A DNA stretch of 64,000 bases, taken from positions 124,001 to 188,000 of the forward strand of contig NZ_JAIQDE010000009.1 of the NCBI RefSeq assembly GCF_020037015.1, read 5' to 3'. Positions 25,011 through 31,379 of this stretch are shown piece by piece; position 1 is the stretch's first letter, and the number at the start of each line of letters is the position of its first letter. The notes beneath the pieces are model-generated. The model ran no database searches. It saw nothing but the letters and a program-made list of their open reading frames with translations, and was not told the DNA's origin. The stretch is from Corallococcus sp. AS-1-6. Its GTDB lineage: Bacteria; Myxococcota; Myxococcia; Myxococcales; Myxococcaceae. The translations under genes and the position numbers were made by a program.

Positions 25011-25475
25011 CTAGCGGGGCTCGTGCTCCGCGAGCACCTTGTCCAGCGCCTCCGCCTGCGCGCGGACGTCCGCGTCGGTGTCCTTCGCGGCCTTGGTCAG
25101 GTGCGCGCGGGCCTTGGCGGCCTCCGTCTTCGCCAGCGCCATGGCCATGCACAGGTTCGCCTTGGGGTGGTCCGGCGCCGCGTCCAGCGCGGGCTTGAGG
25201 ACGGCCGCGGCCTGGGCGTCTTCCTGCTTCTCCAGGTGGAACATGGCCAGGGCACAGGCCGGCTCCACCGCCGAGGGCTCCCGCTTCAGCGCCTCCTGGA
25301 GCAGCTCCGTGGCGAAGCCGCGCTGCTGGTGCGCGTCCATGGCGAACGCCATGGCCTGGAGCTCCTCCACGCTGGCGTCCCCCTGCTGCTTCGCCTGCTC
25401 CACCAGCCGCTGCGCGTTCTCGAAGTTGCCGGCGCGCAGTTCCTTGATTCCTTCGGAATACGGGTAGCTCTTCAC
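25011..25475 (-). CDS. small TPR-repeat protein
   Basis: 154 residues from GTG 25475, with GGGAG upstream. The protein is almost entirely paired helices with TPR spacing (SEGIKELRAGNFENAQRLV, then ALKREPSAVEPACALAMFHL and later repeats). No signal peptide, so it is a cytosolic scaffold or adaptor. The frame is open much further upstream, but only this part has protein character. It converges on the NtrC-type gene with six bases between. No specific function can be assigned. Confidence 0.75.
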   Translation of the reverse strand: MKSYPYSEGIKELRAGNFENAQRLVEQAKQQGDASVEELQAMAFAMDAHQQRGFATELLQEALKREPSAVEPACALAMFHLEKQEDAQAAAVLKPALDAAPDHPKANLCMAMALAKTEAAKARAHLTKAAKDTDADVRAQAEALDKVLAEHEPR

Positions 25476-25518: not shown

Positions 25519-25595
25519 GCGACTTTGGTCGGGGGGCCGCAACTTTGGGACGGCGGTTTCCGAAAAATCGAGAAGACTTCTCCCCCAGGCCCCCC

Positions 25596-26174
25596 ATGAT
25601 CATCCGCAACTCGCCCGTCCGCCAGCCGCAGACCTCCGGTACGGAGCCCACCGCCGCGCGCCCCGCCGCCCCCGCCGCGCGCAACGTGGTGAAGGACTCC
25701 TTCTCCTCCGGAACCACCGCCGCCCAGCGCACGGGCGCCATCAGCAAGGCGCCCCCGGGCGACCACGGCAAGCTGATGAACGAGTACCTCACCGGCGCGC
25801 GTCCGCCCCCGGCGGACTTCGAGCAGGTGATGGGCTACAAGCCCTACGCCATCCAGACGCCGCACGGACAGCGCATGCAGGATCCGCTCGGCTACGCCTC
25901 CGTCCCCGGCAAGATTGGCCCGGACCAGGAGTTCGACCCGGCGGCCAAGACGCACGACTACGGCTACGACCTGCTGCGTTACTACGACCGCAAGGGCACG
26001 CCGCTGAAGCCGGAGGCCCGCAAGGCCGCGGACGCGCAGTTCCGCCAGGACATGTTCGACTACGCCAACGACCAGAAGGGCACGATGGCGAAGTTCAAGT
26101 ACCGTGCGTGGGCGCAGATCTACGCCACCGCGGTGGAGCTGAACTCGCGCGTGCAGGGCTACGGCCCTCCGTAG
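25596..26174 (+). CDS. phospholipase A2-like protein, cysteine-free
   Basis: 192 residues. The first 75 residues are disordered (Pro/Ala/Thr-rich) with no Sec signal or lipobox. The C-terminal domain has THDYGYDLLRYY with H120-D121 and later Asp residues D146 and D152 in ADAQFRQDM. This order (His-Asp dyad on one helix, Asp plus a DM segment on the next) is that of prokaryotic phospholipase A2 of the Streptomyces type, which would hydrolyse the sn-2 ester with calcium. Unlike the secreted enzymes it has no cysteines, so no disulfides. The assignment is by motif pattern and needs a structural check. The sigma-factor gene follows after 16 bases. Confidence 0.6.
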   Translation: MIIRNSPVRQPQTSGTEPTAARPAAPAARNVVKDSFSSGTTAAQRTGAISKAPPGDHGKLMNEYLTGARPPPADFEQVMGYKPYAIQTPHGQRMQDPLGYASVPGKIGPDQEFDPAAKTHDYGYDLLRYYDRKGTPLKPEARKAADAQFRQDMFDYANDQKGTMAKFKYRAWAQIYATAVELNSRVQGYGPP

Positions 26175-26190
26175 TCGCGGAAGGAGTCGC

Positions 26191-26766
26191 ATGGAGGCTG
26201 AAGGGCCAGACGCGGGGCTGCCCCCGGACCGCGAGGACGTGGTGGCGGCGCTCCTGGCCCATCAGCGCCGCTTCCTCGCCTTCCTGGAGCGGCGCGTGGG
26301 CAGCCGGGCCGTCGCGGAGGACCTCTTCCAGGCGGCCTTCGCCCGCACGCTGGAGAAGGGCGGGGCGCTGAAGGACGGCGAGGGCGCGGTGGCGTGGTTC
26401 TACCGCCTGCTGCGCAACGCCCTGGTGGACCACCACCGCCGGCAGGCCGCGGAGGGACGCGCGCTGGCGGTGGAGGCGCGCGACGCGGACGCCGCCACCG
26501 AGGACCTGGAACTCCAGGGCGCGGTGTGCGCGTGCCTCGCGGACCTGCTGCCCACGCTCAAGCCCGAGTACGCCCGGCTCGTGCGCCAGGTGGACCTGGA
26601 GGGGCGCGCGGTGCCGGACGTGGCGCGCGAGGTGGGCATCACCCCCAACAATGCGGGCGTGCGGTTGCACCGGGCGAGGCTCGCGCTCAAGCGTTCGCTG
26701 GAGCGCGGCTGCGGCGCGTGCGCGGCGCACGGCTGCCTGGACTGCTCCTGCAAGCCGCGCCGCTGA
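26191..26766 (+). CDS. ECF sigma factor with cysteine-rich C-terminal tail (CorE-like)
   Basis: 191 residues, strong GGAAGGAG ribosome site. Sigma region 2 covers about 18-85 (VAEDLFQAAFARTLE, WFYRLLRNALVDHHRR) and region 4 about 115-168. The last 18 residues hold C174, C177, C182, C185 and C187 with a final CxC, a compact metal-binding tail; C113 and C115 lie between the sigma domains. Myxococcus CorE-type sigma factors have such tails and sense copper or cadmium/zinc directly, without an anti-sigma factor. None is encoded beside it. A copper ATPase and a copper-storage-like gene lie 2-5 kb downstream, supporting a metal role by inference. Confidence 0.82.
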   Translation: MEAEGPDAGLPPDREDVVAALLAHQRRFLAFLERRVGSRAVAEDLFQAAFARTLEKGGALKDGEGAVAWFYRLLRNALVDHHRRQAAEGRALAVEARDADAATEDLELQGAVCACLADLLPTLKPEYARLVRQVDLEGRAVPDVAREVGITPNNAGVRLHRARLALKRSLERGCGACAAHGCLDCSCKPRR

Positions 26767-28910: not shown

Positions 28911-31379
28911 ATGACGCATCCCCACCCGCATTCCCCCGTCCCGTCCTCGCCCCAGCCGCCGCCCCCCGTGGGCGGAGCGGGGCCCGCCATCGACCCCGTG
29001 TGCGGCATGGAGGTGGACCCTCGCGCGCCCCGGGGCGGGAGCTGGGAGCACGAAGGCCACACCTGGTTCTTCTGCAACCCGAAGTGCCGCCAGCGCTTCC
29101 AGGAGGACCCCGCGCGGTTCCTCCAGCCCGGGACGCCGCCACCCCCCGCCGCGCCGGGCGCCGTGTACGTGTGCCCCATGGATCCCGAGGTGCGGCAGGA
29201 CGCGCCCGGGGCGTGCCCGAAGTGCGGCATGGCGCTGGAGCCCGAAGCGCCGCCCGTCCTCCAGACGCGCGTCGAATACACCTGCCCCATGCACCCGGAG
29301 GTGGTGCGCGACGGGCCCGGCACCTGCCCCAAGTGCGGCATGGCGCTGGAGCCGCGCACGGTGATGGTGGAGGAGCCGCCGGATCCGGAGCTGCGTTCGA
29401 TGACGCGCAGGTTCTGGGTGGGGCTGGCGCTGAGCGTGCCGCTGATGCTGCTGGGCATGTCGGACATGCTGCCGGTGCGGCACGGGCTGTCGGCCTCGGC
29501 GCTCGTGTGGGCGCAGTTCGCGCTGGCGACGCCGGTGGTGCTGTGGGTGGGGGCGCCGTTCTTCCAGCGAGGCTGGGCGTCGGTGCGGAACCGGCACCTG
29601 AACATGTTCACGCTCATCGCGCTGGGCGCGGGCGCGGCGTACGTCTTCAGCGTGGGCGCCATGCTGTTCCCGCACCTGTTGCCCCAGGGCGCGCGCACGG
29701 GGCACGGCGGCACCGCGCCCGTGTACTACGAAGCGGCGGCCATCATCCTCACGCTGGTGGCGCTGGGGCAGGTGCTGGAGCTGCGCGCCCGCCACGCGAC
29801 GTCCGGCGCGCTGAGGGCCCTGCTGTCGCTGGCCCCCGCCACGGCGAGGCGCATCTCGGACGACGGCCATGAGGAGGACGTGCCGCTGTCCCAGGTGCAC
29901 GCCGGGTGGCGCCTGCGCGTGCGCCCCGGTGAGAAGGTGCCGGTGGACGGCGAGGTGCTGGAGGGCGCGAGCTCGGTGGATGAGTCGCTCGTCACCGGAG
30001 AGCCCGTGCCGGTGGAGAAGGGGCCGGGCGCGAAGGTGACGGGCGGCACGGTGAACGGCACGGGCACGCTCGTGATGCGCGCGGAGCGCGTGGGGAAGGA
30101 CACGCTCCTGTCGCGCATCGTCCAGCGCGTGGCCGAGGCGCAGCGCACGCGCGCCCCCATCCAGCGGCTGGCGGACCGCGTGGCCGGCGTCTTCGTGCCC
30201 GCGGTCATCGCGGTGGCGGGGGTGACGGCGGTGGTCTGGGGCGTGTGGGGCCCGGAGCCGAGGCTCGCGCACGCGCTGGTGAACGCGGTGGCGGTGCTCA
30301 TCATCGCCTGCCCGTGCGCGCTGGGCCTGGCCACGCCCATGTCCGTGATGGTGGGCACGGGGCAGGGCGCGCGCATGGGCGTGCTCATCCGCGACGCGGC
30401 GGCGCTGGAGCGGATGGCGGCGGTGGACACGCTGGTGGTGGACAAGACGGGCACGCTCACGGAGGGCAAGCCGCGCCTCGTGACGGTGGAGCCCGCGCCG
30501 GGCGTGGACGCCTCCGCGCTGCTGCTCCAGGCCGCGAGCCTGGAGCGCGGCAGCGAGCACCCGCTGGCCGCCGCCGTGGTGTCGGGCGCGAAGGAGCGGG
30601 GCGTGTCCCCCGGGCGCGTGGAGGACTTCCAGTCCGTGCCGGGGCAGGGCGTCCGGGGCCGCGTGGAAGGACGCGACGTGGCGCTGGGCAACGCGGCGTT
30701 GATGCGGAGCCTGGGCGTGGAGGTGGAGGCGCTGACGGAGCGCGCGGAGGCGCTGCGCCAGGAGGGCCAGACGGTGGTGCTGGTGTCGGTGGACGGCCGC
30801 GCGGCGGGGCTCCTGGGCGTGGAGGATCCGCTCAAGCCGTCCACGCCGGAGGCCCTGGCGAGGCTGCGGGCCGAAGGGCTGCGCGTGGTGATGCTCACCG
30901 GCGACAGCCCCACGACGGCGCACGCGGTGGCGCGCAGGCTGGGCATCACGGAGGTGCTGGCCGGCGTGCAGCCGGACGCGAAGGGCGACGCGGTGAAGGC
31001 GCTGCAGTCCCGGGGGCGCGTGGTGGCGATGGCGGGCGACGGCGTGAACGACGCCCCGGCGCTGGCGCGGGCGGACGTGGGCATCGCCATGGGGACGGGC
31101 ACGGACATCGCGATGGAGAGCGCGGGCGTGACGCTGGTGAAGGGCGACTTGCGAGGCATCGCGCGGGCGCGCGGGTTGAGCCAGGGCGTGCTGCGCAACA
31201 TCCGGCAGAACCTCTTCTTCGCCTTCGTCTACAACCTGCTGGGAGTGCCGCTGGCGGCGGGCGTGCTGTACCCCTTCCTCGGGTTGCTCCTGAGCCCCCT
31301 GTTCGCGAGCGCGGCGATGAGCCTCTCGTCCGTATCCGTCATCGGCAACGCCCTGCGGCTGCGGCGGCTGAAGCTCTAG
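28911..31379 (+). CDS. copA: copper-translocating P1B-type ATPase with YHS and two heavy-metal-binding domains
   Basis: 822 residues, ATG with AAAGGAG upstream. Instead of CxxC HMA domains the N-terminus has a YHS domain (DPVCGM at 28-33, later FFCNPKC) and two copies of the CPMxPEV...[10 protein letters not shown] metal-binding module (about 85-150). Transmembrane helices follow, then the ion-path motif CPC (about 466-468), phosphorylation motif DKTGTLT (D about 511), SEHPL, and GDGVNDAP (about 710). It pumps copper (or silver) out of the cytosol. The copper-storage-like gene follows 100 bases later. Confidence 0.93.

Follow-up and report, generated by a model that had tools for sequence, protein, structure and literature searches.

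We analysed a stretch of 64,000 nucleotides from Corallococcus sp. AS-1-6 (contig NZ_JAIQDE010000009.1, positions 124,001 to 188,000 of the forward strand; hereafter the window, to which all coordinates refer), whose host genome comprises 9.5 Mb. An open reading frame (ORF) at 25596..26174 on the plus strand, which proved genuine, encodes a protein of 192 aa that is a divergent relative of the prokaryotic and fungal (group XIV) phospholipases A2 (PLA2s). As computed here, the protein has the fold and the conserved catalytic residues of these enzymes, lacks cysteines and a visible signal peptide, and its gene has a promoter of the extracytoplasmic function (ECF) type in common with other genes. 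The explanation that we favour, and that as a whole has in our judgement about an even chance of being right, is that of a disulfide-free group XIV enzyme, which would hydrolyse membrane phospholipids by the Ca2+/His-Asp mechanism. It would be expressed from a promoter class common to leaderless, largely lytic proteins and to an operon that looks like the needleless type III secretion system (T3SS*), would be exported unfolded by way of its disordered N-terminus through T3SS* as a non-Sec route, and would help to dissolve prey membranes in predation.

The homology to group XIV PLA2s is carried by the agreement of sequence, fold and residues, though each score alone is weak. Residues 112-181 match the Pfam family PF09056 (prokaryotic PLA2) with E 8.7e-5, whereby the 23.5 bits do not reach the gathering score of 29.4; the family search that the initial annotation of this gene had proposed thus gave a match, but one under the threshold. 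All 22 scanned homologues matched PF09056 with E values of at most 0.1, the lowest being 3.2e-5, and a match above the cut-off was found in none of the 147 genomes of the class. The closest sequence match in the PDB is the secretory PLA2 7ygk (E 0.16), with the HD dyad and the second Asp aligned, and a profile search of the PDB yielded 4aup at E 0.24, with the HD aligned. AlphaFold2 gave a whole-protein model with a predicted local distance difference test score (pLDDT) of 74 and a core model (residues 52-192, 35 sequences) with a pLDDT of 85 and a predicted template modelling score of 0.81, in both of which residues 102-107 are badly placed. In Foldseek searches with the core, the top four rows were PLA2 chains of 4aup, 7ygk and 8k1w (probability 0.99-1.00, E 0.017-0.036), unrelated rows begin at 0.53, and no row of either kind has an E below 0.001. 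The VIA-align comparison of the core placed 4aup first (Z 7.9, root-mean-square deviation 3.2, 102 aligned residues), followed by 8k1w (7.7), 7ygk (7.5) and 1faz (6.9), against 6.3 for the best non-PLA2 structure, all of these Z values being modest for a helical protein; the whole-protein model gave 8.6 (4aup), 7.8 (8k1w), 7.5 (7ygk) and 7.9 (1faz), with 6.3 for the best other structure. The structural comparison suggested in the initial annotation thus led to PLA2s as the best four PDB entries.

The annotation had also recognized the HD dyad and the second Asp in the order of prokaryotic PLA2s, and this was borne out. H120-D121 (25953..25958, plus strand), by homology the catalytic His and its neighbouring Asp, align with the HD of 7ygk and 4aup, and D146 (26031..26033, plus strand), by homology the second Asp of the His/Asp dyad, aligns with that of 7ygk. 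H120, D121, Y124 and D146 are invariant in alignments of 22 and of 35 rows, both including the window protein, the latter with rows picked for spread. The fold and the conservation of H120 and D121, the two points on which the annotation had made its assignment depend, thus both turned out as expected of a PLA2. In comparison to the group XIV secreted PLA2s (1faz; 4aup from Tuber borchii; 7ygk from Sciscionella marina; 8k1w from Saccharothrix espanaensis; PF09056), the window protein shares the fold, the order of HD and second Asp and the catalytic helices, but it lacks the disulfides and the signal peptide, scores below the Pfam gathering score, has a disordered leader of about 55 residues and has a spacing between H120 and D146 that is four residues longer than in 7ygk.

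The PLA2-like gene was matched in 56 of the 147 class genomes, belonging to 7 of 48 genera that are all in the own family, and a sample of the phylum (195 genomes) returned the same 56. Since each of these genomes has a single intact copy, the gene is not a product of chance. Named relatives at the locus are chiefly Corallococcus, Myxococcus, Pyxidicoccus, Archangium and Citreicoccus, and over the 141-residue core the aligned sequences show 70-97 percent identity to the window protein. One record of the locus (L045, BNCN01000004.1) is titled Comamonas sp. KCTC 72670, yet shows a typical Myxococcus-type locus and is probably mislabelled or contaminated. Searches of PHROGs and NCBIfam gave no family for the protein up to E 1. 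A mobile origin of the gene was considered and rejected, with relatives absent from phages and scans of viral contigs likewise yielding none; the related plasmid records are one from Nocardia and one from Tsukamurella.

The leader (residues 1 to ~55, 25596..25760, plus strand) is predicted to be disordered, with a pLDDT below 50 at residues 1-36, of about 60 at 41-50 and high from ~51-55 onward. The disordered N-terminus of the initial annotation is thus present, but its length of 75 residues was overstated. In the 22-row alignment the invariant positions ahead of residue 50 are D34, F36, Q44 and R45, whereby D34-S35-F36 (25695..25703, plus strand) represents an instance of a D[GSTA]F motif to which we return below. 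A simple hydropathy scan found no hydrophobic N-terminal segment, the best 12-residue Kyte-Doolittle mean within the first 45 residues being 0.1, and no cysteine occurs in either the 22-row or the 33-row set of homologues, which overlap in some genomes. The missing disulfide cysteines and signal peptide had been noted before; the former are confirmed here across the homologues and the latter for the window protein. Such a cysteine-free fold behind a disordered N-terminus would lend itself to export as an unfolded chain.

Relatives were also found outside the myxobacteria. A tblastn search of a plasmid collection with the window protein found one record, from Nocardia farcinica (40% identity over 121 aa), and the Nocardia protein as query led to a second relative, from Tsukamurella, with 36% identity over 81 aa to the window protein. 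These proteins (Nocardia farcinica L127:2680-3519 and Tsukamurella tyrosinosolvens WP_068521558.1) have the blocks HD.GYDLLR, G.PL and AR in common with the window protein; they differ from it by an apparent signal peptide, by four cysteines in the domain and by the gene that follows, which is of the alpha/beta hydrolase kind by annotation or by resemblance, the N-terminal hydrophobic stretch having been seen by eye. The four Nocardia cysteines align with A101, A117, A157 and Y169 of the window protein, and in Tsukamurella three are on the same columns and the fourth is shifted by one; A101, A117 and A157 are invariant among the 35 sequences. Characterized group XIV enzymes likewise have two disulfides, according to the accessible part of PMC11525133, so that it is simpler to assume that the cysteines were lost within the myxobacterial branch. 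Thus, the myxobacterial lineage has probably lost both signal peptide and cysteines, whereby we infer the direction of the change from these comparisons. At the Nocardia (L127) and Tsukamurella (L128) loci, the alpha/beta-hydrolase-type gene lies 3' of the PLA2-like gene and a divergent histidine kinase/response regulator pair lies 5', and the Nocardia record has no listed annotation over this stretch. A cysteine-rich PLA2-like protein with an N-terminus hydrophobic by eye is encoded in genome G096 (L048, G096:C1:3396543-3399755, minus strand), and a 71-residue core fragment of it matches Pfam PLA2G12 with E 1.8e-9. As G096 carries both kinds, cysteine-rich and cysteine-free PLA2s coexist in the group.

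The initial annotation had called a PLA2 without cysteines and signal peptide unusual. This holds, but the combination is not new, because TtaP from the typhoid toxin islet of Salmonella Typhi is a precedent for both: in the available part of PMC11525133 it is described as a PLA2 free of cysteines and without an overt secretion signal, which is active in lysates and whose dyad mutant is inactive. Judged from that part of the paper, TtaP has these two absences, the His/Asp dyad and a group XIV-like core in common with the window protein, and it differs in lineage and setting and in that neither a disordered leader nor a shared promoter class is mentioned for it there.

The evidence for a regulatory context comes from the region upstream of the PLA2-like gene. 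A predicted ECF-type promoter, CGCAACT-N16-CGAAAA (25538..25566, plus strand), lies 29 bp ahead of the ATG. In 15 of 15 aligned upstream regions, picked for spread, CGCAACT and CGA.AA (CGANAA) are invariant and separated by N16, and the distance from the promoter end to the ATG is 29-37 bp. The criterion given for ECF promoters of Myxococcus xanthus in the accessible part of PMC3107203 is AAC at -35 and, at a distance of 16-18 residues, a G within the -10 region. The window contains one site of the pattern where 0.03 were expected. In eight PLA2-bearing genomes there are 80 sites versus 33 for the reversed pattern as control, compared to 14 versus 27 in eight genomes of the same order without an FHIPEP match, which have smaller genomes and come from other families. 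With a slightly looser pattern the own genome has 28 sites (control 19), and the relaxed motif was found within 200 bp upstream of none of 328 sampled own-genome genes. These alignments indicate that the conserved regulatory signal is the PLA2 gene's own promoter and not the adjacency to the sigma factor gene that follows it.

In the own genome, one site begins 99 bp before the first gene of a cluster of ~21 kb, mostly on the minus strand by rough gene calls, in which Pfam finds FHIPEP/SctV, SctU, SctR, SctS and SctJ together with three small tetratricopeptide repeat (TPR) proteins. The needleless T3SS* is described, in the part of the review available (PMC10433427), as an inner-membrane platform with export apparatus and LcrH-like chaperones. 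The ~21-kb cluster fits this system, the comparison being by gene content rather than by the locus tags MXAN_2434-2464. Upstream of the orthologous first operon gene, GCAAC-N16-CGATAA starts at 91-106 bp in 18 of 19 genomes. Three of these operons (G000, G022, G097) had prompted the idea; among the 16 regions from newly fetched genomes, picked for spread, the motif is present in 15, the exception (L261) having GAAAC. Extra sites of the promoter class were seen in or near the T3SS*-like cluster at G038:C1:2854598 and G097:C1:4219566, before small proteins without a leader (124 and 153 aa), which could be structural or exported parts. Altogether, co-regulation of the PLA2 gene with the T3SS*-like operon through a shared promoter class is well supported. 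As far as the available parts of PMC10433427 and PMC12075869 on T3SS* and Kil of M. xanthus allow a comparison, the likeness lies in the T3SS*-like operon having the promoter class of the PLA2 gene, and the own genome adds the three small TPR proteins. In contrast, the PLA2 gene is located outside the operon, its spacer is one base longer, and a T3SS* substrate is not described in those parts. In the same partial coverage, T3SS* is reported to be needed for prey lysis (PMC12075869), and its effectors are given as unknown in the 2023 review (PMC10433427) and as hypothetical in the 2025 paper (PMC12075869).

In order to find out what else lies behind the promoter class, 79 sites were read, that is, the 80 sites minus the window's own PLA2 site. 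A coding-like ORF starts 10-120 bp downstream of 69 of them, giving 29 families, and the other 10 have no such ORF; the families include probable chance sites, and the LysM and PG_binding proteins were merged by single linkage. Among 20 products, the Pfam matches above the cut-off comprise LysM, PG_binding_1, Amidase_2, Amidase_6, GH19, PGAP1/Abhydrolase, RTX repeats, Peptidase_M91, Endonuclease_NS and Endonuclease I, and those below it CHAP, NlpC/P60, glucosaminidase and C39 peptidase, while eight products have no family at E 0.01 and one has a weak POTRA match only. A strongly hydrophobic N-terminus is present in 1 of the 29 families versus 125 of 331 sampled proteins (Fisher 3.7e-5), whereby genes were called with a rough caller of our own and the background sample was drawn from a 464-kb portion of the own genome, where the start of the PLA2 gene was miscalled. 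The motif D[GSTA]F, which had first been noticed in a slightly different form ahead of the promoter test, occurs within the first 130 residues in 10 of 29 families versus 25 of 331 background proteins (1.1e-4; 4.1e-4 without the PLA2 family), and at residues 30-55, an interval set after looking, in 9 of 29 versus 6 of 331. Sorted by eye, 13 of the 28 own-genome sites lie in front of such leaderless genes, including those for the PLA2 and for LysM, endonuclease I-like, RTX-M91 and PGAP1-like lipase proteins as well as the first T3SS*-like operon gene; the remaining 15 seem to be due to chance or to belong to unrelated genes.

The leaders were compared as well. A hydrolase with a PLA2-like leader (DUF676, E 0.0071, below the cut-off) carries CGCAACTTTT and then a TGAGAA variant. 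A hidden Markov model (HMM) built from the PLA2 N-termini gave higher scores to 14 of 15 N-termini of alpha/beta hydrolases than to any of 1,500 shuffles (best 12.7 versus 8.4 bits). As sole evidence this similarity was set aside as only suggestive, as 1 of 331 background proteins reached 11.5 bits; it became a lead once the promoter motif pointed to the same kind of gene. Weak matches of the N-terminal HMM, read at 15 places, mostly had a chance or low-complexity look; one in G010 near 5801300 (L106) sits behind the promoter motif (L147). A lipoprotein-like family with a DAF/DTF motif close to the N-terminus was also seen (L109:1054-2382 and L104), which may be akin to transferred toxins of the SitA type.

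Some route of export is required for peptidoglycan hydrolases and nucleases that have no signal peptide. Since the promoter class spans both the operon and the lytic set, and since T3SS* is reported to be essential for prey lysis and its effectors to be unknown, we judge T3SS* cargo to be the most likely role for these proteins. Of the two options left side by side in the initial annotation, an intracellular or a specially exported PLA2, special export seems the likelier one. Specifically, the PLA2 and about ten other leaderless promoter-class proteins of the own genome, including the PGAP1-like lipase, the RTX-M91 peptidase and the endonuclease I-like and LysM proteins, with their counterparts in relatives, could be lytic effectors of T3SS*, recognized by a disordered N-terminus that often carries D[GS]F at residues 30-55; we consider this somewhat short of an even chance.

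Several observations weigh against the favoured explanation. A shared promoter class speaks for co-regulation and not for export by T3SS*, and the spacer following GCAAC is N17 for the PLA2 gene versus N16 for the T3SS*-like operon, both lengths being found among other genes of the class. FHIPEP was matched in 122 of the 147 genomes, that is, in all 56 PLA2-positive ones and in 66 others. In seven genomes (G030, G044, G045, G099, G105, G111, G125) the PLA2 gene is absent although their genera have PLA2-bearing members, so that the gene is dispensable; as FHIPEP is moreover so much wider, the co-occurrence of both says little. In three PLA2-positive genomes (G007, G015, G110) the best FHIPEP score resembles a second, separate locus, so T3SS* is not confirmed there; 35 kb of such a second FHIPEP locus (G000:C11) contain zero sites of the relaxed pattern. 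Furthermore, 19 of the 29 families are without D[GSTA]F. On the side of the enzyme, the individual scores are weak (Pfam below the cut-off, Foldseek E 0.017 at best, VIA Z 7.9), and the Ca2+-loop residue does not appear clearly conserved, with D96 opposite the loop Asp of 7ygk in one alignment and the residues that flank the Cys opposite G99/Y100 in the Nocardia alignment. Against the export by T3SS* there also stand the conserved TPR neighbour of the PLA2 gene, described below, in which the profile searches indicate no specific likeness to type III chaperones, and a precedent for another exit route.

This precedent is PopC of Myxococcus xanthus, a protein without signal peptide that according to the accessible part of PMC6434023 shows enrichment in the periplasm and exits via the TonB-dependent transporter Oar. 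It might thus be that the leaderless PLA2 is exported otherwise, by such a two-step PopC/Oar route, in outer-membrane vesicles or by lysis of some predators, and that the promoter class represents a general predation or lytic regulon that includes T3SS*. For the leaderless LysM-GH19 enzyme C25GH19C of Corallococcus, too, non-classical secretion is predicted (PMC10875029, as far as available). PopC resembles the predicted PLA2 role as a leaderless hydrolase acting outside the cell; it differs, again by the part of PMC6434023 at hand, in being a subtilisin protease that leaves through periplasm and Oar. As the T3SS*-like operon is immediately preceded by the promoter class in nearly all genomes compared, and as prey lysis reportedly depends on T3SS* in the source cited above, we regard export by another route as less probable. 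Less probable still, though not far-fetched, is a cytoplasmic PLA2 that would remodel the cell's own phospholipids, for example in development, and would never be exported. The lack of signal peptide and disulfides, the strong conservation and the single intact copy would agree with such a role, and the comparable TtaP was cell-associated under the conditions tested (PMC11525133, in the part accessible). However, elsewhere the promoter class is found in front of genes for wall-binding proteins, nucleases, peptidoglycan hydrolases and a lipase, for which no task in their own cytoplasm is obvious, and an unrestrained PLA2 in the cytoplasm would be expected to be harmful. A catalytically dead protein that uses the PLA2 fold for binding would be compatible with the uncertain Ca2+ loop and the absent disulfides, but the invariance of H120, D121, Y124 and D146 makes this very unlikely.

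The gene downstream of the PLA2 gene (26191..26766, plus strand) encodes a CorE-like ECF sigma factor. The last base of the PLA2 stop codon is 26174 and the sigma gene begins with its ATG at 26191, leaving the 16 bases that the initial annotation had given. Its designation as a metal-type sigma factor also agrees with the sequence, which carries a CXC motif in its linker and is rich in cysteines at the C-terminus, the features that define CorE-like sigma factors (PMC8999054), with five C-terminal cysteines versus six in CorE. The proposal that co-transcription with this gene is the key was not upheld. By sequence and flank comparison, direct adjacency is limited to the own genus, where it occurs in 14 of 16 genomes; the sigma gene lies ~525-550 bp downstream in genus g18, and within flanks of 1.5-6 kb it was not found beside the PLA2 gene at other loci. 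That the protein is a metal-stress enzyme co-transcribed with the sigma factor and engaged in copper-linked membrane repair, for which the short gap, the pair in the own genus and a nearby ORF at 28911-31379 with the CPCALG motif of copper ATPases could be adduced, is highly improbable, as the two genes are 3.9 Mb apart in G038, as in seven PLA2-positive genomes (G007, G026, G107, G108, G123, G134, G136), some of them fragmented, no sigma match reached E 1e-60, a limit chosen after looking, and as a separate promoter precedes the PLA2 gene in every aligned locus. The sigma factor is thus probably a side issue that is not essential to the PLA2. In G015, on a contig shared with C. llansteffanensis (L029), a short C-terminal remnant of the PLA2 gene lies directly 5' of the sigma gene (L023 / L029:4540-4683), distant from the intact copy; here the PLA2/sigma pair was split through rearrangement or duplication.

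On the other side of the PLA2 gene, a divergent gene (25011..25475, minus strand) encodes a small TPR protein of 154 aa, which was present at 29 of 30 loci having upstream DNA and missing in L022. By Pfam, the window copy remains under the cut-offs and two orthologues lie over them. A role as type III chaperone was considered and rejected: profile searches led to generic TPRs, with a background protein of the window outscoring the T3SS*-like TPRs, and a single-sequence search of the PDB also led to a generic TPR. At 3-1345 of the window there is a further ECF-type sigma gene, with 34% to the CorE-like one, together with an adjoining 277-aa protein that matches the TPR profile.

In the partly accessible literature covered here, with subscription papers mostly outside the coverage and PMC6627406 and PMC5442856 covered only for a patatin and a reference, no description of the promoter class, of the gene set or of identified T3SS* effectors was found. 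The regulatory grouping is the new part, while the enzyme itself belongs to a known kind. The PLA2 represents a case of a secreted enzyme that has seemingly shed its signal peptide and disulfides. As one promoter class precedes the machine as well as a group of largely lytic proteins without signal peptides, it yields a short, testable list of candidates, in which the PLA2 would be the membrane-attacking member. If the explanation is true, a machine for the digestion of prey would have been made out of a type III export apparatus, and its cargo list would be legible from a single promoter.
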